From contig NZ_CP090096.1 in NCBI RefSeq assembly GCF_021391675.1, positions 62,001-126,000 of the forward strand: a stretch of DNA of 64,000 bases, in the 5' to 3' direction. Under the pieces are notes generated by a model that made no database searches, had not been told where the DNA came from, and was given only the letters and a program-made list of their open reading frames with translations. Source of the stretch: Neorhizobium galegae (GTDB taxonomy: Bacteria > Pseudomonadota > Alphaproteobacteria > Rhizobiales > Rhizobiaceae). The position numbers and the translations under genes are program-made. Of this stretch, positions 28,760 to 45,509 are shown piece after piece. Within the stretch, counting starts at the first letter, position 1; the number at the start of each line of letters is the position of its first letter.

Positions 28760-29493
28760 TCAAGGTCGAAAACCTCGATGTCGTCTATGGCTCCAAGGAT
28801 AAAAGCAATCATGTCGTACGCGGTGTCAGCTTCGCCGTGAGCCGCGGCGAAACGCTCGGCATCGTCGGTGAATCCGGTTGCGGCAAATCGACGGTACTGC
28901 GCTCGCTTGCCGGTCTCGAGGGCGCATGGACAGGATCGATATCGTTTGACGGCAAGCCGGTCGGCAAGGTGCGGACACGCGACGAGTTGAAGCTTGCCCA
29001 GATGGTGTTCCAGGACCCCTACGGCTCACTGCATCCGCGCCACCGCATCGGAACCGCCCTCGCCGAGCCGATCAGGTCGATGGGCGCTGGCGACGGTTGG
29101 ACAAGGGTCGCGGAGGCACTGCAACAGGTCGGCTTGCCGGCGCATTTCGCCAGCCGTTTCCCGCATGAACTTTCCGGCGGCCAGCGTCAGCGAGTAGCGA
29201 TCGCACGCGCACTGATCCTGTCGCCGCCGATCCTGCTTCTCGACGAGCCGACCTCGGCGCTCGATGTCTCGATCCAGGCGGAGGTACTCAATCTCCTGGC
29301 AGACCAGCGGGAGGAGCGCAATCTGACGTTCATCCTTGTCAGTCACGATCTGTCCGTCATCTCCCACATGTGTGATCGGGTCCTCGTCATGCAGAATGGC
29401 GTATTTGTCGACGAACTCACCAGGCAGGATCTGCAGGCGGGCGTGACCCACGCGAGCTATTCCCGCGAGCTCTTCGACGCTAGCTTCTTGTAG
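28756..29493 (+). CDS. ABC transporter ATP-binding protein (DppF/OppF-like)
   Basis: The product has 245 residues. It has Walker A GESGCGKST, MVFQDPYGSLHPRHRIG, signature LSGGQRQRVAIARAL, Walker B ILLLDEPTSALD and VSHDLSVI. It is short for DppF (usually about 320) and, like its partner, lacks the C-terminal oligopeptide-type extension. It is the last gene of the operon. Confidence 0.92.
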   Translation: MIKVENLDVVYGSKDKSNHVVRGVSFAVSRGETLGIVGESGCGKSTVLRSLAGLEGAWTGSISFDGKPVGKVRTRDELKLAQMVFQDPYGSLHPRHRIGTALAEPIRSMGAGDGWTRVAEALQQVGLPAHFASRFPHELSGGQRQRVAIARALILSPPILLLDEPTSALDVSIQAEVLNLLADQREERNLTFILVSHDLSVISHMCDRVLVMQNGVFVDELTRQDLQAGVTHASYSRELFDASFL

Positions 29494-29654: not shown

Positions 29655-29686
29655 TTCGAACCTTCGGTATTAGCGGGCGCGTATTA

Positions 29687-30730
29687 AAGCGTGTCGCGTT
29701 TAATCTGCCTCGTATCCTGCGGCTTTGAAGTAGTTTCTGCATTCTGTGACGGAGAAGAGATTGCAGATTTCGCCGAGGGCTTGCGTGATGGCATCGAAGC
29801 TGCGGGCAGCCCGCTTTCGCAGCAGCGTCTTGAGTTTTGAGAAGGCCATCTCTATGGGATTGAGGTCGGGACTATAGGGCGGCAGAAACAGCAGCCAGGC
29901 TCCCTTTGCCCTGACCAGTTCTTCGGCCCGTTCGCTCTTATGAAAGGCGACATTGTCGAGAATGACGACGTCTCCAGGCGACAGGTTCGGCGCGAGTTGG
30001 GTCTCTATCCACGCCTCGAAGATGCGGGCGTTCATCGGCCTGTCAACGATCCAGGGGGCAACCATGCCATGGGATCGCAGCCCGGCGATGAAGGTTTGGG
30101 ATTTCCACGAACCGAAGGGTGAATGCGTTCGATAGCGCTGCCCTCGCGCAGACCATCCCGACCGCTTCGTCAGCTTTGTGTTCGTCGATGTCTCGTCGAT
30201 AAAAACCAGCCGGGCCAATCCTTTGTTGAAGAAAGGCTTGCGCCGTGCGGTCCACAGTTCACGCGCCCGCGCGATCTCCGGGCGCAACTGCTCGGCGGCC
30301 TGCAGGCTTTTTTTTATGGCTCAACCCAAGCCGATGCAGAAGCCGTCCGACACTGGAGCGATGGACGATGACGCCACGTCCGCAAAGTTCCACGCAAAGC
30401 TCGTCCAGCGTCAGTTCGCCATTCTGTGCCAGCCGCTCTCCAACCCACGCGTGCTGTGCCGAAAGCTTACCGCCGCCAAGGTGCCCCTGCCGGCGCGGCG
30501 AAAGCGAACCTGTCTCGCGCTTCAGGATCACCAGATCGTTCACGAAACGCGGCGACACCCGAAAATGCCGGGCGGCCTCCCGATGCCCATGGCCTTCTTC
30601 CACTAACGCTACGACACGCTCACGCAACGCAATCGGATGTGACTTGCCCATGGCGATCTCCCTTCACATCAAAGGGAATCACGGATGGACTGATTTGAGA
30701 ACCATGAATCGCAAAAACAGCGACACGCTT
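29687..30730 (-). mobile_element. IS630-family insertion sequence, 1044 bp
   Basis: The ends are inverted repeats AAGCGTGTCGC (29687-29697) and GCGACACGCTT (30720-30730). They are flanked by a TA on each side (29685-29686 and 30731-30732), the target duplication expected for IS630/mariner-type elements. It carries one transposase gene split across two frames by an A8 tract. It is inserted into the final codons of a small exported-protein gene. Confidence 0.92.
29700..30651 (-). CDS. IS630-family transposase, two frames joined by +1 slippage
   Basis: The first frame (30651 to 30259) encodes the N-terminal helix-turn-helix, MGKSHPIALRERVVALVEEG to GLSHKKK. The second (to 29700) encodes the DDE catalytic domain, with Asp in FIDETSTN, Asp in VILDNVAFHK and Glu in NPIEMAFSKLK. 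The frames overlap at an A8 run (complement of 30308-30315). Skipping one base, or losing one A by transcriptional slippage, gives LSHKKSLQAAEQLRPEIARA, a continuous transposase of normal length. The arrangement is common in this family, so it is annotated as one frameshift product. Confidence 0.88.
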
Positions 30731-30982
30731 TAGGCCGTCGTAATAGTCACCGCTGTCGATCGTCGGAGACGCCGGAATATCGACACGCCGGTCGCGCTTC
30801 GGCTGCGGATAGCCGTAACGGGTGACCGAGGGAATGCCCAGTGAATCCGCCGTGACCGCCAGATGGTCGCGGTCGGGAGAGGCGCCCTCATAATATTCGC
30901 CTTCCTGGGCAAAGGCACTGCCGCCTGCAAAGGTGGATACCATCAGGGTGGCGAGGATCGTGGAGATGACAGAGTTTTTCAT
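30620..30982 (-). CDS. Small exported protein, 3' end altered by IS630 insertion
   Basis: A signal peptide (MKNSVISTILATLMVSTFAG, then GSAFAQ) precedes a short mature part containing RYGYPQPKRDRRVDIPAS and SGDYYDG. AAGGA lies 9 bases upstream. At residue 84 the frame enters the IS and reads 36 foreign residues before a stop at 30620. Joining the flanks at the duplicated TA restores an 88-residue protein ending DGLIRAR and stop, followed by the terminator at 29628-29654. The native function is unknown; only the last four residues were replaced, so the protein may still be exported. Confidence 0.8.
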   Translation of the reverse strand: MKNSVISTILATLMVSTFAGGSAFAQEGEYYEGASPDRDHLAVTADSLGIPSVTRYGYPQPKRDRRVDIPASPTIDSGDYYDGLKRVAVFAIHGSQISPSVIPFDVKGDRHGQVTSDCVA

Positions 30983-31075
30983 AGTCGTTGTTCCTTGTTT
31001 AGCCTGATCGACTTCTGGTGCGACCCAGCCGATCGATGTCTTGAATGAACTGTTTGAATGCTTTGCTTCTGGGCT

Positions 31076-31312
31076 CTATTGCCGTTCGTCGCCGGCAAGC
31101 CGGTTGTCGCGACGGGTCGGGGCCCGGACCTGCGCCACATCACGCGTGGCATCGGCCTTTGCCTCGGTTTTGGCGGCATCCGCCGGGACGGCGAACGAAA
31201 CCTCGTTTCCCGAAGTCAACCGCTGGCCGTCATAGGCCAGGACGTGTCCGGCAAACGAAGCCATACACGCCGCGGCGACGAGGAAGGCAATCTTCTCTAT
31301 AGGCACAGTCAT
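31076..31312 (-). CDS. Small exported protein of unknown function
   Basis: The product has 78 residues. A signal peptide (MTVPIEKIAFLVAAACMASF, then AGHVLA) is followed by a polar mature part starting YDGQRLTSGNEVSFAVPADA, then Ala/Lys/Arg-rich. GGAG lies 7 bases before the ATG. The downstream neighbour on the same strand is the other small exported protein, 93 bp away. No family was recognised. Confidence 0.7.
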   Translation of the reverse strand: MTVPIEKIAFLVAAACMASFAGHVLAYDGQRLTSGNEVSFAVPADAAKTEAKADATRDVAQVRAPTRRDNRLAGDERQ

Positions 31313-32192
31313 TTTTCACTCCATTGTTTGGCGAAACCCGCTTCTGCGGACGTCGTGTTTGGTTTTAAGTCTGCGAGACAGCAGTCGCTGTCATCGATTT
31401 TCCGAATGACTGGAGGATCTCCTCTCGGCCCGTTGAACGGTGTTGCCGAAGCTCCCGTGAGCTCTTCATCCTTCGGAAACGAAAGTAGGCATGAGGATCT
31501 GCCTCACCGGCTCGAAGCGTTTGTGAGCGTTCCCCTGCCGATCGGTTGAGTGCTGCCGGGGACGGCCAATGCCAGCCAGCCGGACTGTGTTTCTCCACCG
31601 TCTTTCGTGATGAGACTTTCTCTCGAACCCGTCATCGCCCCGCCAGCGCGGCGTTAAACTTCCGTAAAAAATTACGGTGGTGAGAAAACAATGGAGAGGG
31701 CTCATCAACTAGAATCTCGCGTACCAGCGAGCGAAACAAGGATATCATGATAGGATATCGTAACAGTCGCGAATATTACGAAGAGTGTTTCGCCATTATA
31801 CGCCACCATTCTCGGCGGAGAACATAATATTAACTCATATTATTTTCAGTAATACTCGAAAACAACGCGCCAGCCTCTCGTGATGCCCTAAAGGCCTCCC
31901 GATGTGCATCTCGTGCAGAATGTGAGGGGCTTGATATTGTGATTATGTCAGGCGGTGCCTGAGAGGCGGATGCTATGGGAAACGAGTCGCTACAACTGAA
32001 ATGGAATGCGCACCGGACCTTCGATCGGAGGCTCTACCGACGTGACTAACTGTGCAACCGTTGCCAAAGATCGAAATTTTATCGCAACATTCCGGTCGTA
32101 AAAGCTTGGCTTTCACGACGGACGTTGTCTGAGCGCCCCTGCTGTTTTCAGGAATGCGTGGGAGATAATTTGGGTCGATGTCGATCCCGGCT
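31313..32192. other. Long non-coding stretch with a dispersed repeat and possible mini-ORF
   Basis: No convincing gene is present in 880 bp. It contains one copy of a repeat shared with 35440-35524 (here 31588-31672). It also has an AT-rich stretch around 31740-31860 and a mini-frame at 31747-31827 (plus strand, 26 codons, MIGYRNSREYYEECFAIIRH) with AAGGA 4 bases upstream. The mini-frame resembles no known family and is listed only as a possibility. As the region just past the modification-enzyme operon, it was searched specifically for a precursor peptide, without a clear candidate. Confidence 0.45.
31588..31672. repeat. Dispersed repeat copy 1
   Basis: This copy is similar (about 70% over 75-80 bp by eye) to 35440-35524. 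The shared core is ACCCGTCATCG, then CGCCAGC, then GCGTTAAACTTCCGT. Within it GTCATC, GCCAGC, GTTAAA and GTAAAA start at 31631, 31642, 31653 and 31664, exactly 11 bp apart. Confidence 0.65.
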
Positions 32193-33104
32193 TTATGAAT
32201 ATGCGCTTCGCAGGCCAACCGCCGTTGCGGCCTCCCTCCAAAAGCTGCATCCGACCACGGTCGGGCGGCGAACGGAAGCATGGCGATTGGACGTGACCGC
32301 TTCGAACGCCATCGGGACTTCCGCGCGTTTGTGGTGCGTCACGCCTTCGGCGACGATCTGTTCGCCGGCGCGCGCTACCAGCAGATAAGGGTGTCGGTGA
32401 TGCGCCAGCTTGCTGATCAGCCGGCGGCGTTTCGCCATCGCTTCCGCCAGTTCCTGCATCTTTGGAACGGTGTGCAGGATATCGCGCGCCAGCCGGGCTG
32501 CAGCGCTGTCTTCGAAATGGAACCGAGGCAGCCGCTTGATCTTCCCGACGCTCAATCCCGCGTCTTCGTGAACGGATACGATATCGTCCAGTCCGTCAGG
32601 CAGCCACCCCAGGCCGAACGTTTCTTTCTCCTCCTGGCGAAGAGAAGGAGGCGCATCGGCGTCGTAGACATAGTGGCAATCCATCAGGAGACCGCCGGGC
32701 CTCAGGCATCTCGCCACCATTCGGTAGAGATCCAGCGGCCGCTCGAAAAAGGCAGCACTTCCTCCGCAGATGATGACATCTGCCTCCGATATGATGTCCG
32801 GGAGCGCGGCAATGTCGACGCAGGAAAATATCGCCGTCGACTCCTCCCGCCGTGCGACCTCTCGCGCGACCTCGATTATCGCCGGATTTTCGTCCACACC
32901 GATCACTTCGGCTTGCGGAAAAGCCCGTGCAACCCTGCGGCTGATCCAGCCTGTATTGCAGCCAAAGTCGACGATCTTGCGCGAACCGCTGGGAAAGGCG
33001 GCAAGGATCGCCTCCATCATTGTTTCCCCGCCAGGCGGTACGTTCTTCTGTTTCAAAGCTGCGACGATCGAGAAATAGTAGTCCTGGGAAGAGAGGGGCT
33101 TCAT
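32193..33104 (-). CDS. SAM-dependent methyltransferase
   Basis: The product has 303 residues from MKPLSSQDYYFSIVAALKQK at 33104, overlapping the ThiF-like gene stop (ATGA). Class I methyltransferase motifs are visible: motif I VDFGCNTGWISRRVAR near residue 47, acidic end of strand 2 in VIGVDENPAI, motif II/III regions ADVIICGG and LRPGGLLMDCHY. The last 45 residues after LLVARAGEQIV are poorly conserved-looking. Coupled translation with the E1-like enzyme suggests it acts on the same substrate, perhaps a peptide. The target atom cannot be inferred. Confidence 0.82.
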   Translation of the reverse strand: MKPLSSQDYYFSIVAALKQKNVPPGGETMMEAILAAFPSGSRKIVDFGCNTGWISRRVARAFPQAEVIGVDENPAIIEVAREVARREESTAIFSCVDIAALPDIISEADVIICGGSAAFFERPLDLYRMVARCLRPGGLLMDCHYVYDADAPPSLRQEEKETFGLGWLPDGLDDIVSVHEDAGLSVGKIKRLPRFHFEDSAAARLARDILHTVPKMQELAEAMAKRRRLISKLAHHRHPYLLVARAGEQIVAEGVTHHKRAEVPMAFEAVTSNRHASVRRPTVVGCSFWREAATAVGLRSAYS

Positions 33105-33817
33105 GGCTGACACACCTTGCAATCGAGGTTCTTGGAAACAGGATGGAGTGAGGCATGGCCCGTGGCCGGATTGAAGAGCCAGCGATGGCCGCGCAATGAA
33201 CTGCGGTGGGTAAGGCGTTCGATGGCGATCTGCGAAACCGCAAAACAAGCGATCAGGGCGTTGTCGGCCGGCGACGGCGGCGCTGCGACCCCCGTGTCGA
33301 CCGATGCCGGCGATGTCGAGCAGCAGAAAGGGCAGGCATCATCCGGCTGCGCCACCAGTGGCCCGGCGACACAAAACGGTCCAACCTGGCCGACATGCAG
33401 GTAAGGCGGAGGCTCCGGCGCCGTCGCGCGATATTCCGCCAGGAATTGGCGGGCCAGGGAGACATCGTCCTCTGCAAGTATCAGGAAAGGTTTACGTGTC
33501 CGGGCCAGAGTGAGCCGGGCAGCTTCCGCCCCATCGGCGAACTGGGTCATGATTGCAACCGCGGCGGAAAAGCGGGAGGCGAGATAAGTTGCCAACCGGT
33601 CGCTCTTTAATCGACCGGTATCTTCCGCCGTCCCACAGGTCATCCGTTTTTGGCTGCTCTCTTCGATGCGGTCGCCGTCCACGAGGAAGAAATTGCGAGC
33701 CCCGAGCGCTGCGAGCTGGGAGGCAATCTGGGAGCCGAGGCCTCCGCATCCGACAATTATGAAATCCGTCTCGTGAATGACATCAAAGAGATCTGCATGA
33801 TATTCGAAGGCTCTCAT
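33101..33817 (-). CDS. ThiF/HesA-family E1-like adenylyltransferase
   Basis: The product has 238 residues. The nucleotide-binding motif GCGGLGS is at residues 23-29, followed by FFLVDGDRIEESSQKRM, equivalent to the VDxDxxExSNLxRQ block. Two Cys pairs (CPFC/C and CKVC near the C-terminus) likely bind structural Zn2+. Family members adenylate C-terminal carboxylates of ubiquitin-like proteins or RiPP precursor peptides (MccB and PaaA are examples). It sits between an HExxH-like gene and a methyltransferase gene and has no ThiS/MoaD partner nearby, which favours a peptide-modification role. That role is inferred. Confidence 0.85.
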   Translation of the reverse strand: MRAFEYHADLFDVIHETDFIIVGCGGLGSQIASQLAALGARNFFLVDGDRIEESSQKRMTCGTAEDTGRLKSDRLATYLASRFSAAVAIMTQFADGAEAARLTLARTRKPFLILAEDDVSLARQFLAEYRATAPEPPPYLHVGQVGPFCVAGPLVAQPDDACPFCCSTSPASVDTGVAAPPSPADNALIACFAVSQIAIERLTHRSSLRGHRWLFNPATGHASLHPVSKNLDCKVCQP

Positions 33818-33881
33818 GATCGTTTACCTTGCTTGAACCGGTCGGGAACTGCTGAGAATTCACAGGAACCGCGCCCACCCA

Positions 33882-35330
33882 TCACGCATGCTCCATCACC
33901 GTCGAACTTGACGTTCCCGCCAGCGCGACATCTTGGATTGAAAACTCATCGGGAGGCTGCCTGGCGGCTTTGCGGATCATATGGAGCCGGCCATCGTACC
34001 AGAGGCTCAGGCCATCGCCGTTGCTCTGCAGCATCGGGCGGCCCATTCTCGGGTCGATGGGCTGCTCCCCCCGCAGCAGCACCTGCCCGAGATCCCAGGC
34101 CTGACGATCCACGACACACAGGCGCTGGGCATAGTAGGCCTTGCGCCGAGCCGGCGGCTCGCACTCCAGAAGCCGGTCGATGAGCGCCAAGATTGCGGCG
34201 CCCCAGGAAGGAATGACGGCGATGTCCCGGAGATCGAGAAGAACATCGCCGCCCAGACGCTCGATCCCCTCGCGGGCGATATCGATGAGCGGAATTAGGC
34301 GGGCAGCATACGCAATGACAAAAGCTGCTTCCCGCGCACGGTGCTCAGGCGGTGCTCTGAAAGGCAAGCATGCGATGCGGACAGCGCACTCCCAGGGAAT
34401 GGCGTAGGCCGTATGCACGATGCTTTCGAGCGTCTGTAAACTGTGTGTGTATGGCGATACGTATCGCAGTTCGGCGGGCAGCGATAACGGCGCAGCCGCC
34501 GTATACAGCCGCAGCAGGACATGCCCCGCTTCGCGCAGAAGCTCAGCGGCGGTCGCCGGATAGTCTTCGGCGTCCAGCTTTTCCTGCGACAGGACCACGA
34601 CGGCACTCCCCGGCAGGTCGCCGGAGCTGGAGAACGAGCTTATCGCACCGCGCCGGGTGCCGATATAAAGTGTGTGAAGGCCTGCAGTCAGCCGTTGATA
34701 GCCACCGGGATCGACGCTCGAAATCAATTCGATTGCCTTGGTGAGATGATCGTCGATCCGGTCCAGGTCGTGGTCGCTCATCTGGGCATGCTCGAAGCCG
34801 GGATCGGACGGCCGGCAATGAGCGATGCGCTTGCGCATGGTGCGGCTCGCTTCCAGACTGTCGATCAGGACGAGACCGATACCACAGGCAAGCCGGCGGG
34901 CAGGACGGCGTTCGAGCGCAAGGTCCTCAGCCACAAGATGAGGCTGCAGGCTGTGGTCCACAACTTCAGAACTGGCGCCGTCGACGTAGCTTTCCAGCCC
35001 CCGCTGAAGCTCATCCATCCAAGCCGCCAGCGCGGGAGACCGGTAAGGGTCGCTTCGCACGGGCAGGAAGGCTGCGGTGGGCAGGAACGCGTCGGCATCA
35101 TGATATCCGCCATCAGCAAGGCCCGGGAAATAACGGGCCAGCGCCTCGACCCTTTCTCCGCAACCCGGCAGCTCGGAAGCGGCGGCAAGAATTCGGGCAT
35201 AACGGGGTCGCTGTTTCAGCATATTGCCCGTTGCAGCCGCATTCACGAAACCGGACCTTGAAAAGAGCGGATTGCGCCGGAGCAAAGCTCTCGCCTGATC
35301 CGCCAACGGCTCGATCTGATAAGCAGACAT
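33882..35330 (-). CDS. HExxH-motif-like putative peptide modification protein (degenerate motif)
   Basis: The product has 482 residues from MSAYQIEPLA at 35330, chosen for GAGGAGAG upstream. Its size and central pattern resemble the HExxH putative peptide-modification family (TIGR04267-like, now linked to alpha-ketoglutarate-dependent peptide hydroxylation). ELLREAGHVLLRLY at residues 263-276 occupies the HExxH position, and SIVHTAYAI with His306 occupies the second ligand block. The first His is replaced by Arg266 (REAGH). The C-terminus ends in a Ser/Thr-rich tail, DVALAGTSSSTVMEHA. It is first in a three-gene unit with the E1-like and methyltransferase genes. The family call rests on pattern recognition and needs a profile search. 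Confidence 0.55.
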   Translation of the reverse strand: MSAYQIEPLADQARALLRRNPLFSRSGFVNAAATGNMLKQRPRYARILAAASELPGCGERVEALARYFPGLADGGYHDADAFLPTAAFLPVRSDPYRSPALAAWMDELQRGLESYVDGASSEVVDHSLQPHLVAEDLALERRPARRLACGIGLVLIDSLEASRTMRKRIAHCRPSDPGFEHAQMSDHDLDRIDDHLTKAIELISSVDPGGYQRLTAGLHTLYIGTRRGAISSFSSSGDLPGSAVVVLSQEKLDAEDYPATAAELLREAGHVLLRLYTAAAPLSLPAELRYVSPYTHSLQTLESIVHTAYAIPWECAVRIACLPFRAPPEHRAREAAFVIAYAARLIPLIDIAREGIERLGGDVLLDLRDIAVIPSWGAAILALIDRLLECEPPARRKAYYAQRLCVVDRQAWDLGQVLLRGEQPIDPRMGRPMLQSNGDGLSLWYDGRLHMIRKAARQPPDEFSIQDVALAGTSSSTVMEHA

Positions 35331-35439
35331 CTTAGCTCTCCTCACCCGGACGCTTCGAACCTCGTCATGAGGCGCGCCACTTCAGGGAAGATTAGCTGCC
35401 GCCAGAACCGGCCGTACCAACGGCCTCCGGCTTGAAACC

Positions 35440-35524
35440 ACGATCTCGTCTAGTCTTCCGTTGAGAGGAGCTTCTTGTGGACCCGTCATCGGCACGCCAG
35501 CACCGCGTTAAACTTCCGTGAAAA
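35440..35524. repeat. Dispersed repeat copy 2
   Basis: This copy matches 31588-31672. GTCATC, GCCAGC, GTTAAA and GTGAAA start at 35485, 35496, 35507 and 35518, again exactly 11 bp apart. It lies between the subtilase terminator and the HExxH-like gene, about 155 bp upstream of that gene's start. Confidence 0.65.
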
Positions 35525-35539
35525 GGAAGCTTCGCCGAC

Positions 35540-35567
35540 AAAAAAAGCCCCCTTTTCTAGGGGGCTT
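35540..35567 (-). terminator. Rho-independent terminator after the subtilase gene
   Basis: The stem AAGCCCCC/GGGGGCTT has a 7-base loop, and the A-run at 35540-35546 becomes a T-run on the minus strand. It separates the SARP-PAP2-protease unit from the modification-enzyme unit. Confidence 0.88.
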
Positions 35568-35597
35568 CAATCCTGGTGATCCTCGCCGAGAATCGGC

Positions 35598-37295
35598 TCA
35601 CGGAGACAATACGGCGGCGATAGCTGCCGGGACATCGGGCAGGCCGAACCCGAAGAAATAGCTCATATCGAGAGCATCTTCGCCATCCGCATTCATGCAG
35701 TCGGCGGTCAGTGCGCGTATTCCCGGCGCTACCATCGCATCCAGCCGGGCCGTGGACTGCAGGATCGACTTGACCGAAGGGCCGGAGAGCCGTGCATCGC
35801 CACCGTTCTGGCTCTTATGTGCCCGCTGGATCAGGGCGCATATGCCCCCCACCTGTGCGGAGGCTCCCGACGTGCCGCCGAACGTGGTGTAGTAACCTCC
35901 ACCAATGCCGGGATTGGCTGCGGACGGCACCATGGACGACCATGGATCCGCACCCCGGTCGTAACCGAATGCGCCGGGAAGGTCTGTCGTCAGCAGTGAG
36001 AAGTGAGAATACCTATATTCCCGCAGCCCGAATGCCTCATGGTCATGTTGCGCGGCGAAAGGGGACAGGCGGTCGACGCGCAACTGATGACGATTGAAGA
36101 CTTCGCCGTCATCGGATGGCGAGACGACCGTAAGCCCCTCTCCGTAGTTGCTGTATCCCGAGCGGTAACCCTCGACCGTGACCGCGCCGACGGCGATTAT
36201 CCCGTTGTCATCGGCGGCCAGATTGGCCGGATAGATCAACTGACTTTCGCCGCTGTTTCCCGCGGCGCAAACGATTGGAATATGATGGCTGATGGCGACG
36301 ATGAGCTGCTTGAGGATATGCCACGCCCTATCGGGGTTTGATCCCTTTTGCGGGGTTTTCGGCTCCAGCTCGGCGCCGCCCTGCTCGGCCAGAGATATAC
36401 GGGCGAACAGATCGGCAGCGATTTGATTTTTCCAGCGTTCGAGATCGGCCTTCAATTCGTTCTTCGGAATAACCCGACTGCGCTTCGGGTCCGGCAAGCC
36501 GCGTGGCAGGACGATGACATCGACACGCTGATGATAGGCGTAGAGGAACGCGGCGATGAACTGCAGGACATCGTCCTCGAAAGACGTCCTGATCGAGATC
36601 ACCCGGGAGAAGGGATCCACGCCGAAATAGGGAAGAACGTTGCGATTGGCGCTCGGGCATGGCGTGCCGCCGGCACCGTAGAATACGCCCTCGGGGAGTG
36701 CCGAGGGACCTCCATCCTGCGTCGTCACGGCCGGCTCGCCGGCGATCAGGCCGGCACAGCAGGTGCCATGGGAAGCAAAAAGCGACTCCGGGTGGAACAA
36801 CCGTCGGACGACGCCCTGCGAAGCCGCATATTCCGCGACAATGTCGTCGAGATATTCCCGATCATCGTTGGATAGGCCGAGGTTTCCCAACGGCGCGATA
36901 TCAAGCCCCGCGAAGAACGCCTGTTTTTCTTCACGGTCGAAGGATGTGGTCGCATCGAGGATTTCGGCGACGCGCGAACCGTAGCGATGGCTCGTAAGGT
37001 CGATCGAGGCTTCACGGTCAAGCCGGGTCGCCAAATTCGGATGATCGGGCGCTATCCCGACATCGATCAGCGCCACGCGGGCGGGATGGATAGAACCGGC
37101 AGCCTCAATGGTATCCCAGACACTTCCCCCGATCTCCGGGTCAGGGACCGGACGCGCCGCAGTCTCGTTCTCGGACGGCGGTACGATCGGCGGCGAACCG
37201 TAGTCGGCATCGATGACGCCCAACGCCGTCAGATGCCAGAGATAGTAGTAGTTCATCGGTGCGGCCTGCGGCGCTTCCATGTCGGCGGACGTCAT
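35598..37295 (-). CDS. Subtilisin-like (S8) serine peptidase without signal peptide
   Basis: The product has 565 residues from MTSADMEAPQ at 37295 with GGGGAG upstream; a TTG six codons earlier is less likely. The catalytic triad is readable: Asp78 (RVALIDVGIA), His176 (FASHGTCCAG) and Ser476 (FGGTSGASAQVGG), with oxyanion Asn347 (CAAGNSGE). No Sec signal is visible, so it is probably cytoplasmic, as expected for a protease that matures or degrades a cluster-encoded peptide rather than an extracellular enzyme. It shares a transcription unit with the PAP2-like gene (34-bp gap) and ends at a strong terminator. Confidence 0.88.
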   Translation of the reverse strand: MTSADMEAPQAAPMNYYYLWHLTALGVIDADYGSPPIVPPSENETAARPVPDPEIGGSVWDTIEAAGSIHPARVALIDVGIAPDHPNLATRLDREASIDLTSHRYGSRVAEILDATTSFDREEKQAFFAGLDIAPLGNLGLSNDDREYLDDIVAEYAASQGVVRRLFHPESLFASHGTCCAGLIAGEPAVTTQDGGPSALPEGVFYGAGGTPCPSANRNVLPYFGVDPFSRVISIRTSFEDDVLQFIAAFLYAYHQRVDVIVLPRGLPDPKRSRVIPKNELKADLERWKNQIAADLFARISLAEQGGAELEPKTPQKGSNPDRAWHILKQLIVAISHHIPIVCAAGNSGESQLIYPANLAADDNGIIAVGAVTVEGYRSGYSNYGEGLTVVSPSDDGEVFNRHQLRVDRLSPFAAQHDHEAFGLREYRYSHFSLLTTDLPGAFGYDRGADPWSSMVPSAANPGIGGGYYTTFGGTSGASAQVGGICALIQRAHKSQNGGDARLSGPSVKSILQSTARLDAMVAPGIRALTADCMNADGEDALDMSYFFGFGLPDVPAAIAAVLSP

Positions 37296-37328
37296 GATCT
37301 TCGTTCTCCCCAAAGAATAAAATCGGCC

Positions 37329-38351
37329 TCAAACCCATTCGTCGTGGACCGCCTGGAAAAGCGGCCCGAACGCATCATGGAGGTATGGAGCGAAACGCCG
37401 CGCCAGGTCCCGGCCGGCTTGCGTATCGCTCGGATAATGCAGTCCGGCCCATTCGCGATTTTCAGCGACGTTCAGCGCGATACGGGCGAGTTCATCCGTT
37501 GCCGGATGTTCAGGCAGGATCGTCGAGAAAGCGAATACGATCGAAAAGCACTGGAAGGCATGGTTGCTGGGATAGGATTCGTGCACCGGCACGGGCAGAA
37601 GCGGTCGCAACAGGGATTCGAACTGGTTCGGCCGAAGTCTGTTGAACTGGCTCTTGTAAAGAAGCCCGACATATTCGCAGGCGGTCAAGATCGCCTGAAA
37701 CAAGCCCTCGGTCTGTTCGTACCCGCCAATGTCCTCGATATACAAGGCGCGGGTAAATTCCGACACGGAAATGGTCGCCTCGGCCTGGATGTCGGGCAAT
37801 CGCCTTGCCCGCTCTCGATCGCGCCGCTGCATGGAAAGCAGCACCGCCGCTTCCAGTCGGGTATAGTCCGGACCGGGTGGCGGCTGGATGTCGAGCATTT
37901 CCCAAGTAAAACGCCGCGCGGCCGTGAACGCGTTGCGCGACGGCTGCTGGTGCAATCGGCGCAATTCGAACGCCGGAATGAGTTGCGATACGCCGAGACT
38001 CGCGCCGTCCATCGTCGACTTGTTTTTGTTCTTGTTCTTATTTTTGTTTTTATTCTTGTTCTTGTTCAGCGTGGCCTTGTTGAGCACCGACTTGTTTGCG
38101 ACGCTCTTGTTGAGGACCGAGGCCGCCGCCATTGTCGCCATCATCAACGGAGGCTCGTCTATGGGTAGGGCCTCCTCGGACAGAGGGGCAAGCGCAGGCG
38201 GAACGGAGGGAGACGGCTCCATCTCCTCCGGAATGGCCTCGACGGGCCTCGGTTCGCAAGGGAGAACCGTATCAGGCTCAACCCTAAATCTATAAGAATT
38301 CAAAAAATGCACAATCTTTGATTGCGTCTCCAAATTTGCTTCCCCTACCAT
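37329..38351 (-). CDS. PAP2/vanadium-haloperoxidase-like protein with Asn-Lys repeat
   Basis: The product has 340 residues; GGGGAGG lies 7 bases before the ATG. The PAP2 signature is in the C-terminal half: KSQFNRLRP (Lys233, Arg240, Pro241), SYPSNHA (Ser262, His264) and REWAGLHYPSD (Arg299, His305, Asp309). These residues bind phosphate or vanadate. No membrane helices are seen, which points to the soluble haloperoxidase-like branch. The N-terminal 115 residues are Pro/Glu-rich, then contain LNK/ANK repeats (80-92) and eight consecutive Asn-Lys pairs (96-111). The gene starts 40 bp after the SARP regulator, so it is probably co-transcribed. Halogenation or dephosphorylation remains open. Confidence 0.78.
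   Translation of the reverse strand: MVGEANLETQSKIVHFLNSYRFRVEPDTVLPCEPRPVEAIPEEMEPSPSVPPALAPLSEEALPIDEPPLMMATMAAASVLNKSVANKSVLNKATLNKNKNKNKNKNKNKNKSTMDGASLGVSQLIPAFELRRLHQQPSRNAFTAARRFTWEMLDIQPPPGPDYTRLEAAVLLSMQRRDRERARRLPDIQAEATISVSEFTRALYIEDIGGYEQTEGLFQAILTACEYVGLLYKSQFNRLRPNQFESLLRPLLPVPVHESYPSNHAFQCFSIVFAFSTILPEHPATDELARIALNVAENREWAGLHYPSDTQAGRDLARRFAPYLHDAFGPLFQAVHDEWV
38019..38066 (-). repeat. Hexanucleotide AAY-AAR tract encoding (Asn-Lys)8
   Basis: About eight imperfect 6-bp units lie inside the PAP2-like gene. Unit changes of 6 bp keep the frame, so length variation between strains is likely. Confidence 0.85.
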
Positions 38352-38390
38352 GCCCCAGCCTCCCCAAATGAGATCATCGTGAATGTTGCC

Positions 38391-40343
38391 TTAGCGAATT
38401 CTGGCGCCAGCCTTGATCAGGCCGTCGAGCAACAGCTTTCCACCGCCGGTGTTGAGCAATGGATAGCCCGTGCCGCGAAACGAGGTTATGGAAAACCCGT
38501 TTTCGACCTTATCAAGCCGTTCCACATATTGGTGTGCAGCCTCCAAATTGCCCGTGTGAGCGTGGCTGGAAGCGAGATAGCGCAACAGGCTATTGAAGTT
38601 CGGCCGGGAATGCAGGGCATCCTCGCCTGCGGCTATTGCCGCCACGTGGTCTCCCGCCAACCCGGCGCTGATGCATTTCGTCGTGTCGAAATAATATTTA
38701 TGAGGGCTGTAGACGCCGAGCTCCTGCACCCACCGCGCCATCGCGCTGGCCTTCTCCGGCTGCCCCGCATAGCAATGCAGCATGGCATAGAGGTCCCAAC
38801 CCAGCGGCAAGGCCGGGTTCAAACGGATCGACTTCTCGAACAGACCGGCTGCGTAATCGTACTCCCGGAATAGGAAAGAGTGGACATGTCCGACCAGCGC
38901 CAGGGAGACGGAATTATTCGGATCGAGTTCAAGAGCCTTTCGCGCATAGGCCTGGGCCTCTTCGATCACATGCGCATCCAGCGCGCTGAAGCGCTGGCCG
39001 ACCTGGAATGTGCGGATGAAGGACAGCCAGGCGAAGGCAGACGCTCGCGGCTGATATTGAATCTGCTCCTGCAGCCGCTTTTCCGCCTTTTCGAGATCGC
39101 CTCTCGAAAGCCGGAAGATCGCGTTGACCGCATCGACGAAGAGACCATCGCGGGTCAGGCGACCGTCGCCGGCGCTCAACTCATGAAACAGCGACAACTG
39201 GTCGACTGCCTGGCTGATTAGAGCCGCGGCGACCCCGTATTCGGACCGCTCCATCTGGGTGCGTCCGATCATACGGCTGCCAAGCCATATGATCCGGTTG
39301 TCGAGCAGATGCTTGATCGCCAGCTCCACCAGCACCTGACTGCCATCGAAGGTCAGCCGCAGTTGAAGGCACAGTGGAAGACCCATCTTTCGATCCGGTT
39401 GCCCAAGATGCGGGTCGAAGGAGAGATCGGTAATGCCGAGCCCCAATCCGTCGAAGATCGCCTTGGCGAGCAGGTTCTGAAACTGCAATGCCGCGATCTG
39501 CCCCCCATCTCCGGCGCCGATGACGATCGGCGGCTGGAGAGCGATGGTCCACTGAATATTGTCCGGCGACGGCGGCTTGTCCGGATCAGTGCCCACAGCT
39601 GCCGAGGGAATATTGGTCGGGCGCTGGTCAGGCAAGCCTGTCAAAGGCAAGAGCGCTGATAGCGTGCTGACGTCGCGGCGAGGTTGCTGCCGAGGTTCGA
39701 ACACATCGTCGACGCGCCCTTCTTCGATGCGTCGGTACCAGTTCTGTCTCTCGACCGTCAGCCAGTCTTCGAATTCAGGATCGCGGATATCCATGCCTTC
39801 GAGCAGTTCGTCGGTGATCTGGTCGACCAGGCGCTCGCTGCGCAGCATCTCATCGGTGTCGAGCGCGATGCGGTCCATGTCCAGCCACACGGTGTTCTTG
39901 TCGGCGATGATGAGATCGCGGGACGAACCCAGGGCTTTGTGAATATCCAGCAAGGCCTGCCTTAGGCTGGCGGCCGCCTGGTCCTCGGACCGGTCGCTCC
40001 ACAATTTGTCTCTCAGCCAAACCCGCGAGCGGGATCCCCGCGCAGAGAGAGCAAGCATCGCAAGAATTGCCTGGGCCTTCTGGGACCGGGGTGTGGCAGA
40101 TTTCCCTTTGCTGTCGACGAGACTGAACGGGCCAAGCAGGTACATCCGGAACACTGCATGTTTTGCATCCATGCGATCCATTGGCCCAACTCGTATTGTG
40201 CCCCTCTCGATCATCTCATCGAACCTGGGCTGCCCGTCCAGCAGACAGTCTGACACAAAAGCGGCCCTTGACAAGAGTGCGACAGGCGCACTTGCGATTC
40301 GGCAGCGCATGTCAGCGTTGTGGCCATTGACGAATTGAAGCAT
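38391..40343 (-). CDS. SARP-like transcriptional activator (winged helix + BTAD + TPR)
   Basis: The product has 650 residues; AAGGA lies 7 bases before the ATG at 40343. Residues about 65-150 form an OmpR-like winged helix (FRMYLLGPFSLVDSKGKSAT, KAQAILAMLALSARGSRSRV, WLRDKLWSD), followed by the bacterial transcriptional activator domain (QAAASLRQALLDIHKALG). The C-terminal half has TPR-like repeats (YARKALELDPNNSVSLALVG, YDYAAGLFEKSIRLNPALPL). This layout is that of SARP-type regulators, which activate secondary-metabolite or catabolic clusters through 11-bp direct repeats. It heads the minus-strand block 32193-40343 and its own promoter carries such repeats. Confidence 0.83.
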   Translation of the reverse strand: MLQFVNGHNADMRCRIASAPVALLSRAAFVSDCLLDGQPRFDEMIERGTIRVGPMDRMDAKHAVFRMYLLGPFSLVDSKGKSATPRSQKAQAILAMLALSARGSRSRVWLRDKLWSDRSEDQAAASLRQALLDIHKALGSSRDLIIADKNTVWLDMDRIALDTDEMLRSERLVDQITDELLEGMDIRDPEFEDWLTVERQNWYRRIEEGRVDDVFEPRQQPRRDVSTLSALLPLTGLPDQRPTNIPSAAVGTDPDKPPSPDNIQWTIALQPPIVIGAGDGGQIAALQFQNLLAKAIFDGLGLGITDLSFDPHLGQPDRKMGLPLCLQLRLTFDGSQVLVELAIKHLLDNRIIWLGSRMIGRTQMERSEYGVAAALISQAVDQLSLFHELSAGDGRLTRDGLFVDAVNAIFRLSRGDLEKAEKRLQEQIQYQPRASAFAWLSFIRTFQVGQRFSALDAHVIEEAQAYARKALELDPNNSVSLALVGHVHSFLFREYDYAAGLFEKSIRLNPALPLGWDLYAMLHCYAGQPEKASAMARWVQELGVYSPHKYYFDTTKCISAGLAGDHVAAIAAGEDALHSRPNFNSLLRYLASSHAHTGNLEAAHQYVERLDKVENGFSITSFRGTGYPLLNTGGGKLLLDGLIKAGARIR

Positions 40344-40386
40344 GAAAACATCCTTGGAAACCGCAAACCTGCCCTAGCGTGCCGCT

Positions 40387-40419
40387 GTCAAAGCAGCGTC
40401 AAAACAGCGTTAAAGTCGA
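40387..40419 (-). promoter_or_regulatory. Three direct repeats at 11-bp period in the SARP promoter
   Basis: On the plus strand GTCAAAGCAGC, GTCAAAACAGC and GTTAAAGTCGA start at 40387, 40398 and 40409. On the coding (minus) strand they read as TTTRAC units, the last one merging with a TTGACA-like -35 element. They lie 44-76 bp upstream of the regulator's ATG. This is the geometry of SARP binding sites, suggesting autoregulation. Confidence 0.6.
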
Positions 40420-40700
40420 GGCTCAACGAGTTGCGCCGAAGCGGTGTCTCGCATTTCTCGCTCGCGAATCACTGCGTTGACCCGAGACGGCGGGCTTTGC
40501 GAATAATCTGGACACTATTTACGGCGGCCCCGTCGTTATGGCCAAAAGGGCATCGCTGTCCTGAACACGTTGCGCTTCCTCAGAAATCACCTGCAGATCT
40601 CGCTGGCAGGTGATGTCAGGCTAAATCCGCCAAGGGTATTTTGGGCACGGCCATGAGGAGAGAATGACAGATACCAGGTCGTCGACGTGAAGCCGTGAGC

Positions 40701-40752: not shown

Positions 40753-42474
40753 TCAGGCAGCGCGAACCAGCTGTTCGGCCTGGCGCAGCGCCGAGATTAC
40801 GCGATTCTGGCCGCGCACGAGCTGGGTCTTGGCGAAACCGAGCTTTTCAGGGCCGAGCTTGTCGAGATCGGCTGCCGTCGAGATGGCGGGCAGTTCCGGG
40901 ATCGGCAAAGCCGGGTCGTGGCGGAAGCGCTGCTCGCGGGTGTAGTTGAGCGGCACCAGGATGCGGGCGAGCCTCTGGATCACGTGGTTGGCGCTCTTCG
41001 CTTCGATCTTGCCGCTGTCGATCCCGGCGTAGAACGCGGCGAGTGCTTCGGCCAAGGATTCGACGGCCTTGCGGCTCGGCGAAAGGTCGAAGCGGTTGCC
41101 GGCCTTCTTCTGGTAGGTGTCGACCGTGTGGAGGAATTCCTTTGCCGTCGCGCGCCAGTCGAAGGGCAGGATTTTTGCGTTGGCATTGCGCAGTACGGCG
41201 AGCAGATAGACCTTGATATCGCGCAGCATGATGTCCTTGTCGGCGATCTCCAGCGTGTCGTTTTCGGTGTGCCAGGCGATGTTGGCGCCGCAGCCGCCGA
41301 CCGTGTAATAGCCCTTCTCCTCGCGGTCCCGCTCGGTCATGGTCGAGGACAGCATCAGGTAGCTCGACAGGCCGATATTGTTGAAGGAATAGTCGCCGGC
41401 GCGGTGCGGGCGTTCGGCTTCGGCTTTCTTGCCGGCCACTTCCTCGATGACGTCGGAGAGGAAGGCTTCCGTCTCGGTCATCATGCAGAGATTGATGAAT
41501 TCGGTCGCCCAGCGGCAGCCGGGGCTGTCGCAATTGACCGAGGCGACGCAGTTTTCGTCAAGGTCGAGCGCAAAATTGTCGGAGAACCAGGTGGAGCCGG
41601 CATAACGGCCGGTCGAGTGGCCGGGCCACCAGCAGATGCGGATCGAGCGCTTCAGTTTGTCGCGGTTGGCCCACAGCACGCGGGCGATTTCGAGCAGCGT
41701 CGCGTCGCCGGTCGCATTGTCGCCGACGCCGACATCCCAGCTGTCCAGATGGCCGTGCAGGAAGACGTATTTGTCGGGTTCCTCGGTGCCCTTGATGAAG
41801 ACTTCCGGCAGCTTCGATTTGAACCAGCCTTCTTCCATGTCCGCAAAGATGGTGACCTCCGTGCCGGTCTTGGCAAGCTCGATCAGCGCATCGCCGCTCT
41901 CGCGGTTGACGGCTACGGCCGGGATCGACGGCTTGCGCGGCAGGTCGTCGAGGTCGGGCGTGCCCCAGACGGTGGTGCAGGTTCCCCAGTGGATGTCGAC
42001 GCCGGGATTGATGGCGATGACGCCGACCGCGCCGAGTTCCGTGAACTGCGAAACGAGACCCGGATTGGCGAAACCTTCCGAGAGAACCACCTTGCCGCGG
42101 ACCCTGGCGGCGAGTTCGCCGGTGCCGTCGACGGTTTTCTCGAACATGGTCGAGATCGCTTTCGGCTGGAGGCTGGCGATATAAACGATCTCGCCCTTCA
42201 CGCCCTTCGATGCATCCAGCGAATAGGACGGCGGCTTGGCGCGGAACGTTTGCCCGCCAGCTTCGACGCGTGCGAGGCCGGGTAAGCTGAGGAAAAGGTC
42301 GGCTTCGTGCATCTTGACCTCGACGCCGTGCTTGGCGAGCCGCGCCGCGACCTCGTCCATGGCGCGGTTCACATCGGTCGGATGCTCGCGCTTGTAGGTC
42401 GCAAAGCTCTCTACCAGAGCCCAGGGTTCATCCAGGTTCACCGCTCCCAGAACGGCGGATTCGATCTCGTTCAT
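40753..42474 (-). CDS. M28-family-like metallohydrolase with PA domain
   Basis: The product has 573 residues and no signal peptide. A PA-like insert (VRGKVVLSEGFANPGLVSQF) precedes the catalytic domain. Metal ligands are visible in FLHGHLDSWDVGVGDNATGD (His, Asp). The segment that normally carries the catalytic Glu-Glu pair reads WWPGHSTGRYAGSTWF, so the usual general base is absent. IAWHTENDTLE near residue 425 matches a late His ligand. It is divergent from the ABC/hydantoinase operon and shares its IclR-type operator, so it likely hydrolyses an amide or peptide imported by that system. Confidence 0.82.
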   Translation of the reverse strand: MNEIESAVLGAVNLDEPWALVESFATYKREHPTDVNRAMDEVAARLAKHGVEVKMHEADLFLSLPGLARVEAGGQTFRAKPPSYSLDASKGVKGEIVYIASLQPKAISTMFEKTVDGTGELAARVRGKVVLSEGFANPGLVSQFTELGAVGVIAINPGVDIHWGTCTTVWGTPDLDDLPRKPSIPAVAVNRESGDALIELAKTGTEVTIFADMEEGWFKSKLPEVFIKGTEEPDKYVFLHGHLDSWDVGVGDNATGDATLLEIARVLWANRDKLKRSIRICWWPGHSTGRYAGSTWFSDNFALDLDENCVASVNCDSPGCRWATEFINLCMMTETEAFLSDVIEEVAGKKAEAERPHRAGDYSFNNIGLSSYLMLSSTMTERDREEKGYYTVGGCGANIAWHTENDTLEIADKDIMLRDIKVYLLAVLRNANAKILPFDWRATAKEFLHTVDTYQKKAGNRFDLSPSRKAVESLAEALAAFYAGIDSGKIEAKSANHVIQRLARILVPLNYTREQRFRHDPALPIPELPAISTAADLDKLGPEKLGFAKTQLVRGQNRVISALRQAEQLVRAA

Positions 42475-42503
42475 ATCCGATACTCCCCAACTTGTTTTAT
42501 TTA

Positions 42504-42520
42504 GTGAAACGATGTTTCAC
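42504..42520. promoter_or_regulatory. IclR-type palindromic operator, copy 1 (M28 promoter)
   Basis: GTGAAACGATGTTTCAC is a perfect 7-3-7 inverted repeat 30-46 bp upstream of the M28-like ATG. The same sequence recurs upstream of the iclR gene and ABC operon. Confidence 0.75.
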
Positions 42521-42591
42521 AAAACTTGAAAACGCTAACAGAGGTTGGGGGGCCCCGCAAGCAGCTTCGAGGGGCTAGAAATCGCACTGAC

Positions 42592-42615
42592 GAAAACGGG
42601 CGCCAAAGCGCCCGT
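42592..42615 (-). terminator. Rho-independent terminator after iclR-type gene
   Basis: A perfect 8-bp stem ACGGGCGC/GCGCCCGT has a CAAA loop. AAAA on its left becomes a TTTT run on the minus strand. Confidence 0.8.
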
Positions 42616-42652
42616 CGATTTCCGGATAGGTAGAGATGGGCTCAGTCCGGCC

Positions 42653-43453
42653 TCAAGCCCTTGATTTCACGAGGCCGTTTTCGCCGGGGCCGTGGATCGA
42701 AAGGCGCTCGGAAATTTCCGCAGCGGCGTCGAGGGCGGCCTTCAAATGGCTTTCGCGCCGCTCCTCGTCGAAACGGGCGACCGCGCCGGCAACCGAGATC
42801 GAGGCGATGATGGTGCCGTCGGCGCCGGTGATCGGGGCGGCGACGGAAAAGGCGCCCTCGTCGAGATCGTTAAGGACGATATTGTAGCCGTTGGCGCGGA
42901 TGCGTTCGAGGGCCTGGCGCAGTTTCGCCCGGTCGGTGATCGTGTAGGGCGTGAAGGCTTCGAGCGGCTGGGAGAGCGCCGCATCGATGACCGAAGGATC
43001 CGCATAAGCCAGCAGCAGCAGTGATCCGCCGCCCGCATGCAGCGGGCCGTTGCGTCCGGCCTGGGCGAAAAGCCGGATCGAATGGCGGCCGGCGCGGGTC
43101 GCCAGAACGTAGGTCTTCAGGCCTTCACGCACGACAAGGTTGACGTTCTCGGATGTCTGGTCGCGGAGCGCATCCATGACCGGCCGGGCGGCGTAAAGCA
43201 GGGCGCCGTCCTTGCCGAGGCGCTCGCCAAGCACGCCGATGCGGTAGCCGAGTGCGAATTCGGCGCGTTCCGGATCACGCGATACGAAGCCGCGTTCCTC
43301 CAGCGTGTGCAGCAGGCGGAAGACCAGCGATTTGGTCATCCCCAGCGATTTGGCAAGCGACGTGACGCCCTGGTCCGGGCGGTCGGCAAGCGCTTCCAGA
43401 AGGGCAAGCGCCCGGTCCACCGCCGCGATCTTGTAGTCTTTTGGTTCGGTCAT
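42653..43453 (-). CDS. IclR-family transcriptional regulator
   Basis: The product has 266 residues from MTEPKDYKIAAVDRALALLE at 43453, with GGAGGAG upstream. The N-terminal winged helix-turn-helix (GVTSLAKSLGMTKSLVFRLL, then HTLEERGFVSRD) is followed by an IclR effector domain (LHAGGGSLLLLAYADPS, IVLNDLDEGAFSVAAPITGA, ISVAGAVARF). It sits between the M28 gene and the divergent ABC operon, both preceded by the same palindrome, and probably represses or activates both in response to the substrate. Confidence 0.93.
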   Translation of the reverse strand: MTEPKDYKIAAVDRALALLEALADRPDQGVTSLAKSLGMTKSLVFRLLHTLEERGFVSRDPERAEFALGYRIGVLGERLGKDGALLYAARPVMDALRDQTSENVNLVVREGLKTYVLATRAGRHSIRLFAQAGRNGPLHAGGGSLLLLAYADPSVIDAALSQPLEAFTPYTITDRAKLRQALERIRANGYNIVLNDLDEGAFSVAAPITGADGTIIASISVAGAVARFDEERRESHLKAALDAAAEISERLSIHGPGENGLVKSRA

Positions 43454-43535
43454 CGGATGGTCTCCTCCGGCATCTGATTTGGATTGCTTGAAGCTTCTTG
43501 CAATCTTCTTGGAATGTGTTTTACTCGCTCTCAAT

Positions 43536-43552
43536 GCGAAACGATGTTTCAC
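43536..43552. promoter_or_regulatory. IclR-type palindromic operator, copy 2 (iclR/ABC divergent promoter)
   Basis: GCGAAACGATGTTTCAC matches copy 1 at 16 of 17 positions, with one mismatch in the outer arm. It lies about 83 bp upstream of iclR and 185 bp upstream of the ABC binding-protein gene. Confidence 0.75.
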
Positions 43553-43736
43553 ACAATAAAACATTGAGGGCCGGGTTGCAAACCCTTCGAAGGCGCTCGT
43601 GCAGAATTCTGTGGAATGAGTATCGGTTTTGAATGCGCGGGAAACGTGTTTGAAGGCCGATTTCGGATTTGCGATGCGGAGGGAGAAAACCCTTTGCCAA
43701 CAAGAGAATAGTCAAGCTATTCAGAGGAGAACGACG

Positions 43737-45389: not shown

Positions 45390-45396
45390 TCCTCAC

Positions 45397-45434
45397 GGAG
45401 GCGGCGATCTCTCCCGGCGCCGCCTCCCATTTTT
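45397..45434 (+). terminator. Intra-operon terminator/attenuator after the binding-protein gene
   Basis: A perfect 10-bp stem GGAGGCGGCG/CGCCGCCTCC has an 11-base loop and is followed by CA and TTTTT. Its place between the binding-protein and permease genes would give excess binding protein over membrane components. Confidence 0.8.
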
Positions 45435-45509
45435 GCCTGACGCTTGACATCGGCAGCCTCGCCTTTCCTCCCAAAGGAGGCGCCGAGCCAAGAGAAGGAA
45501 TTTTTTCCG

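Follow-up and report, generated by a model that had tools for sequence, protein, structure and literature searches.

A six-gene set on the minus strand

The window analyzed here is a 64,000-nucleotide stretch of the 6.05-Mb Neorhizobium galegae genome (G000:C2:62001-126000), and our subject is a set of six genes within it, followed by two short peptide genes, SO1 and SO2. The six open reading frames (ORFs) occupy 32193..40343 and all lie on the minus strand, in the order given by an initial annotation of the sequence, which proposed a possible cluster for a ribosomally synthesized and post-translationally modified peptide (RiPP) with its precursor missing. The features are listed below in the order of transcription.

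40386..40414, minus strand: operator before the SARP gene, three heptamers at 11-bp spacing, the last 8 bp before CTAGGG
38391..40343, minus strand: SARP-type regulator gene (650 aa), with C-terminal TPR profiles and an N-terminal DNA-binding/BTAD part assigned by eye and from an orthologue's annotation
37329..38351, minus strand: PAP2-superfamily protein (340 aa), with K-x6-RP, PSNH and R-x5-H-x3-D motifs and an N-terminal Asn-Lys array
about 38120-38015: the Asn-Lys array
35598..37295, minus strand: S8 subtilase without a signal-like N-terminus, triad motifs present
35544..35568, minus strand: terminator-like hairpin (10 pairs) and T run that follow the subtilase and stand between units 1 and 2
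35484..35523, minus strand: operator before the HExxH operon, four heptamers at 11-bp spacing
33882..35330, minus strand: alpha-ketoglutarate (aKG)-HExxH-fold protein (482 aa; TIGR04267, 52.9 bits), motif degenerate to REAGH
33101..33817, minus strand: ThiF/E1-like protein (238 aa; PF00899)
32193..33104, minus strand: class I S-adenosylmethionine (SAM) methyltransferase (303 aa), ATGA overlap with ThiF
31630..31669, minus strand: operator before the third unit, four heptamers at 11-bp spacing
31076..31312, minus strand: SO1, a 78-aa peptide with a hydrophobic, signal-like N-terminus
30620..30982, minus strand: SO2, a short peptide with a signal-like N-terminus and GEYYEG / GDYYDG motifs
29685..30732, minus strand: IS630-type element (DDE_3 transposase, perfect 13-bp inverted repeats) inserted into the 3′ end of SO2

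Profile scores set against curated cut-offs, gene by gene, confirmed five of the six families first proposed: PF01569 for the PAP2/haloperoxidase-like protein (32.5 bits, cut-off 27.2), PF00082 for the subtilase (73.5 bits, cut-off 21.8), TIGR04267 for the HExxH-like protein (cut-off 40), PF00899 for the ThiF/E1-like enzyme (58.2 bits, cut-off 28.1) and PF13649 for the methyltransferase (57.5 bits, cut-off 27). The sixth protein, called a SARP/BTAD regulator, gave only TPR-type matches in Pfam at E up to 1, and no OmpR-type DNA-binding, BTAD or Trans_reg_C match within that limit. Its SARP name rests on the annotation of the R. leguminosarum WSM1689 orthologue as 'SARP family transcriptional regulator'; the orthologue in R. 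johnstonii 3841 is annotated 'hypothetical protein'. The proposed coupling of ThiF and methyltransferase could be read directly from the ATGA at 33104-33101. Likewise, the subtilase, described as leaderless, has an N-terminus that is not signal-like by a simple hydrophobicity window, which also served to judge SO1 and SO2, and its Asp, His and Ser motif strings, beginning at residues 82, 181 and 479, place it with PF00082 among the S8 subtilases. Judged by eye, 35330 and 37295 are the likelier starts for the HExxH protein and the subtilase. The hairpin at 35544..35568 has the longest stem of the 9 terminator-like sites in 30600-40700, a number to be read against 9.2 in shuffles.

The motifs K-x6-RP, PS[GN]H and R-x5-H-x3-D are the active-site motifs of the PAP2/class A acid phosphatase/vanadium haloperoxidase superfamily. 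All three are present in the window protein, and they occur in 45/46, 41/46 and 46/46, respectively, of the named loci (L numbers) that we found by scanning for two short peptide patterns taken from the subtilase, a search that misses relatives without those patterns. The protein matches acid phosphatase 7f17/7f18 by sequence, a likeness that leaves phosphatase or haloperoxidase activity putative; its AlphaFold2 model was unusable (pLDDT 39.4). The Asn-Lys array sits in the N-terminal extension in 46/46 loci, from Rhizobium to Luteovulum, and is encoded with mixed synonymous codons. It has 7 units in 21 loci, 8 in 16 and 4 in 5, with 2, 5, 6 and 9 units in one locus each.

Phased repeats before three proposed transcription units

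The box TTTNACGN4TTTRACG has three matches in the whole genome, one ahead of the SARP gene, one ahead of the HExxH gene, and a third at 31.67 kb. Through the last of these we found the third unit (31.7-30.6 kb), which lies outside the extent first given to the cluster; the six genes do fall within 32193..40343, but genes behind the same kind of operator reach ~30.6 kb. Across a group of 57 genus genomes, which also includes Pseudorhizobium (G029 and G338), the box matches 31 times in the 11 genomes with a HExxH-type cluster, always inside the cluster, and 4 times in the other 46, with 0 in G029 and G338; the backward control of the box gives 18 matches in the 57 genomes. Four TNRCG units at an 11-bp period give 50 matches in 29/46 loci, all of them either 3′ of the subtilase or preceding the third unit, whereas control periods of 8-10 and 12-17 give 0; these are matches and not operators, since they overlap in some loci, and the loci are kin. 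The pattern is absent from 17 loci (L065, L068-L073, L075, L077-L085), and the four-repeat operator of the HExxH operon is present in 10/10 Neorhizobium loci. An 11-bp spacing of direct repeats is the SARP rule stated in the part of a published study used here (PMC10936776), and the window's promoters follow it. We infer that all three operators would be bound by this SARP.

Long conserved leaders, apparently non-coding, follow both four-repeat operators (window 35484-35330 and 31630-31312), and by eye the two are alike just past the repeats. A micro-ORF between operator and HExxH gene was rejected: its first ~17 codons appear conserved by eye, but the frame end varies among six sequences. Because of these variable ends, and because a similar stretch stands before unit 3, we read it as leader or promoter. 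No known RNA family was found at gathering score.

Distribution of the gene set

PAP2 and subtilase are present in 46/46 loci and the SARP in 45/46 (not found in L078); the three are adjacent in 45/46, spanning Rhizobiaceae, Phyllobacteriaceae and one Paracoccaceae. HExxH and ThiF follow in 28/46 loci and the methyltransferase in 8/46. Loci without HExxH and ThiF belong to Pseudorhizobium, N. xiangyangii, Phyllobacterium, Aminobacter, a Mesorhizobium metagenome-assembled genome and Luteovulum azotoformans, and the SARP-PAP2-subtilase triad is a wider module that exists alone in other genera. PAP2 matched at E below 1e-140 in 13/57 genus genomes, with weak matches only in 7 more; the regions of the 12 other PAP2 genomes hold a full-length HExxH gene in 9, a truncated one in G001 and none in G029 and G338. 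In a set of 60 genomes (own included) the HExxH protein was found in 6, all of the genus and one partial, and in an order sample the subfamily was found in 2/297, both of the genus, a sample that was too thin or missed the Rhizobium/Peteryoungia copies. The subtilase occurs in 69/72,556 plasmid records (62 Rhizobium, 4 Neorhizobium). R. johnstonii 3841, a laboratory strain, carries the Rhizobium version of the set on pRL12; the existing annotation there names the third enzyme a 'HEXXH motif-containing putative peptide modification protein'.

Conserved co-occurrence in relatives, suggested at the outset as a check, is therefore found, and the gene set is real and conserved. It is more than a chance assembly because of this co-conservation and because eight genes have median dN/dS of 0.08 to 0.37. 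Literature searches recognised no published description of these genes, and the miss by pRL12 locus tags means little as those tags were partly guessed; four articles were used in part (PMC12636437, PMC13060819, PMC10936776, PMC12452194).

In 17 Rhizobium-type loci, the region downstream of ThiF holds a gene of ~73 aa and a DUF982 gene (L091 13352-13990). In strain 3841 the 73-aa gene starts 10 bases past the ThiF end, and WSM1689 has the same protein accession; it is a possible partner in these loci. The record of plasmid pNgVX from N. galegae VafX2 (L092) lists SARP, ThiF and methyltransferase in fragments and has no HExxH annotation, a pattern suggestive of frame errors or decay. The window locus is flanked by genes for an M28 peptidase, an IclR regulator and peptide-type ABC transporters (window 40756-46484 and 27863-29493), and similar transporters flank some relatives (99% identity in L008, about 40-55% in L009-L011).

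A hydroxylase fold without its motif and its probable descent

The TIGR04267 score places the window protein with the aKG-HExxH peptide beta-hydroxylases, and it shares the zincin-like fold of ChlB HExxH. The iron-binding HExxH motif is not there: what had been called HExxH-like actually reads R-E-A-G-H. The first His is Arg in 9/9 full-length Neorhizobium copies, and L046 has also lost the second (REVGQ). Our motif alignment has 29 rows: the truncated L045, 9 from Neorhizobium, 17 of Rhizobium type, and two from Rhizobium sp. BK602 (L054) and Peteryoungia ipomoeae (L065). The Rhizobium-type rows read HEAGH (4), HQAGH (4), HEAGN/HEAAN (8) and REASH (1), and both L054 and L065 read HEAGH. Glu302 and W313-E314-C315 are invariant in 21/21 aligned sequences; a place for Glu302 in the active site is a guess. 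By sequence, the protein matched no solved structure at E up to 1, and the C-terminal likeness of ThiF to a TOMM leader-binding protein is sub-threshold (18.9 bits, cut-off 36.9).

The window holds clustered homologues of RiPP modification enzymes, as a RiPP cluster would, and two relatives have a fuller version.

L054 11763-19752: radical SAM/HExxH RiPP-type cluster
L065 11919-19803: radical SAM/HExxH RiPP-type cluster

Both share the window's SARP, PAP2, subtilase, HExxH, ThiF and methyltransferase genes, and between subtilase and ThiF they carry a radical SAM/SPASM gene, two genes of 105-110 aa, HExxH, an AdoMet decarboxylase, a daptide-like methyltransferase and two small genes (by profile scans in L054, by likeness in L065). 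The two precursor-like 105-110-aa products end in a common tail, FDGNCGCAL[FY]GPGGVL[TS]R. No published description of this cluster was recognised in literature searches. The radical SAM gene and leader-like precursors are missing from the Neorhizobium locus, the radical SAM search being confined to it. The Neorhizobium operon is a reduced one, with the hydroxylase fold and no HExxH motif.

Among the copies, those with a broken HExxH motif, altered in different ways, lack the radical SAM enzyme, although 4 copies without radical SAM stay intact. In a tree of SARP, PAP2 and subtilase (without L078), L054 branches first within the Rhizobium clade (support 100), and parsimony on this tree favours a history in which the radical SAM part would have been lost repeatedly over one in which it was gained. 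The RiPP label thus appears to hold by descent and not as a demonstrated pathway, and the RiPP-like pathway first proposed would here be reduced or repurposed.

Selection on the two enzyme units

In comparisons of 9 Neorhizobium sequences, or 7 in the case of the methyltransferase, median dN/dS is 0.076 for SARP, 0.090 for PAP2 and 0.087 for subtilase, compared with 0.202 for HExxH, 0.183 for ThiF and 0.202 for the methyltransferase; SO1 and SO2 have 0.301 and 0.369. Unit 2 is under purifying selection that is less strict than that on unit 1. One explanation is that SARP, PAP2 and subtilase form the working system, with or without exported GDYYxG peptides, while HExxH, ThiF and methyltransferase would be decaying relics. 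The dN/dS difference (0.08-0.09 for the triad, about 0.2 for the others) fits this, as do the 18/46 loci with PAP2 and subtilase and none of the three enzymes, the several different ways in which the motif is broken, the truncated HExxH of L045 and the lack of a methyltransferase match in L045, L050 and L052. However, full-length HExxH genes persist in 9/10 Neorhizobium loci (window included) with dN/dS near 0.2, and all ten loci keep the HExxH operator. We regard decay as a serious but doubtful explanation.

Short signal-bearing peptides in the third unit

SO1 and SO2 had been overlooked when the precursor was reported missing. Among the 57 genus genomes, 3 NHLP-type precursor matches at E about 0.085 lay inside long frames, none convincing, and there was none in 397 order genomes, a scan that had no positive control and scored no more than 12 candidates in each genome. 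SO1 and SO2 occur in 11/11 genus genomes with a HExxH-type cluster. Both evolve as coding sequence (dN/dS 0.30 and 0.37). SO2 is 87-88 aa in relatives; the last codons of the window copy, after the GDYYDG motif, are replaced by insertion sequence. The transposase of this element occupies two overlapping frames close to an A run.

The motif [GAES][DEN][YFD][YF]xG, chosen after the peptides had been seen, is present in 18/1,883 same-strand short downstream ORFs, 2/2,068 on the other strand and 0/2,488 upstream. The SO1 and SO2 hidden Markov models were built from the same loci, which leaves L067 as their one independent find. Three such peptides directly follow the subtilase in Pseudorhizobium and N. 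xiangyangii. Elsewhere in the genome, signal-bearing GDYYEG-like peptides stand in tandem arrays or single copies (G000:C1:1347063-1348618, C1:3052039-3052888, C2:903927 and C1:3960686; L124-L127), with the motifs near the mature N-terminus and C-terminus. Six cluster members gave no Pfam match and no meaningful NCBIfam match.

The strongest candidates for the missing substrate are SO1 and SO2, unproven in that role. They could also serve as precursors, or an unlinked gene could, in a fully working RiPP pathway in which the REAGH protein would be catalytic with another metal set. Sec-signal RiPP precursors do exist, as bufferins, according to the portion of PMC12452194 drawn on, and the invariant Glu302 and W313-E314-C315 together with a dN/dS of 0.2 are consistent with retained activity. 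But the first His is gone from every full-length Neorhizobium copy and the second also from L046, the genus genomes gave no convincing NHLP-type score, and the conserved parts of SO1 and SO2 past the hydrophobic N-terminus contain no Cys. We therefore consider a fully working pathway quite unlikely.

A proposed SARP-switched regulon

The initial RiPP interpretation as a whole is partly supported. The reading we prefer, which we hold to be evenly poised between right and wrong, is a SARP-switched regulon of three transcription units. Unit 1 would comprise SARP, PAP2 with its Asn-Lys array, and subtilase. Unit 2 would be the HExxH-fold protein, ThiF/E1 and methyltransferase, sharing descent with the radical SAM/aKG-HExxH RiPP-type cluster that is complete in BK602 and P. 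ipomoeae, and unit 3 would supply two short, probably exported peptides, SO1 and SO2, as the likeliest remaining clients. A signal would act on the TPR-bearing SARP, which would bind the 11-bp-phased repeats and activate the three units. The HExxH-fold protein and ThiF may then serve as peptide-binding and/or adenylating parts, the methyltransferase would methylate, and the peptide would exit by Sec and be trimmed by the subtilase.

Several observations weigh against this regulon. A generic sigma-70 scan found no promoter at the operators, and over 30600-40700 it gave 3 sites against 3.5 in shuffles. L065 has no four-repeat operator, and in the core tree it falls outside Neorhizobium and Rhizobium (support only 80, in a quick tree and on a long branch); the HExxH and ThiF tree (without L045 and L087) places L054 and L065 on the Neorhizobium side. 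Because of this weak deep branch and the conflicting tree, the radical SAM part may have been either lost or gained. SO peptides also occur in Pseudorhizobium and N. xiangyangii, which have no HExxH, ThiF or methyltransferase. SO2-like genes are multicopy in the genus, in 29/57 genomes at E up to 0.1. The window's genome alone has 14 matches, part of them in arrays away from this locus, and 16 of the 29 genomes are without the PAP2 module, though in six of the 16 the match is single and weak. A search of 12 module-bearing genomes of other genera, a set that had no positive control, gave no SO2-like peptides, and on this ground SO1 and SO2 as a universal substrate were rejected.

An anti-phage or conflict system with E1-like and subtilase effectors was also considered. 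PADLOC matches were to E1-E2 models (at most 40.3 bits), to a Mads methyltransferase (49.1) and, weakly, to a subtilase (19.2). These are partial matches to generic domains, however; PAP2, HExxH and SARP had no PADLOC model at E up to 0.001, and operator-linked signal-bearing peptides do not fit defence. We reject this explanation as very improbable.

A more specific version of the regulon goes further, and we put it forward as a speculation that is more probably wrong than the decay explanation. The RiPP operon would have turned into a non-oxidative peptide-handling device, in which an aKG-HExxH-fold pseudo-hydroxylase, an E1 and a methyltransferase, behind a four-repeat SARP operator, might service short exported GDYYxG peptides with PAP2, bearing its near-constant Asn-Lys array, and a cytosolic subtilase; as part of the same joint claim, these peptides might form an uncharted, tandemly amplified rhizobial family.

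One gene set thus gives a testable series, running from a full radical SAM/HExxH RiPP-type cluster (BK602, Peteryoungia) through partial machinery with HExxH intact or broken (Rhizobium) and a uniformly altered first residue (Neorhizobium) to the bare SARP-PAP2-subtilase module (Phyllobacterium, Aminobacter). SARP-type 11-bp repeats, cluster-specific genome-wide, precede peptide-enzyme genes in Alphaproteobacteria, and a concrete candidate is named for the missing peptide. Two further features stand out: the PAP2 Asn-Lys array kept across families and the GDYYxG peptides.

Comparison with known systems

From the aKG-HExxH peptide hydroxylases (ChlB HExxH, PflC/PosC, PesO; TIGR04267/IPR026337), the Neorhizobium copies differ in the Arg that replaces the first His, and the window gene has no established precursor beside it. 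The BK602/Peteryoungia cluster has the same six genes as the window and, in L054 but not L065, a four-repeat operator, whereas the window locus is without the radical SAM gene, the two precursor-like genes, the AdoMet decarboxylase and the daptide-like methyltransferase. The bufferins and other Sec-signal RiPPs likewise place short signal-type peptides beside modification enzymes, as far as the part of PMC12452194 used goes; the window differs in having no MNIO gene among the genes described and SO1 and SO2 without Cys motifs, their modification being putative. Like the Streptomyces SARP regulons (AfsR and others), as covered in the part of PMC10936776 used, the window has direct repeats with 11-bp phasing and, here at the SARP promoter, a 3′ repeat 8 bp before a -10-like hexamer. 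It differs from them in being alphaproteobacterial, in having four repeats at units 2 and 3, and in a regulator with no Pfam BTAD/Trans_reg_C match.

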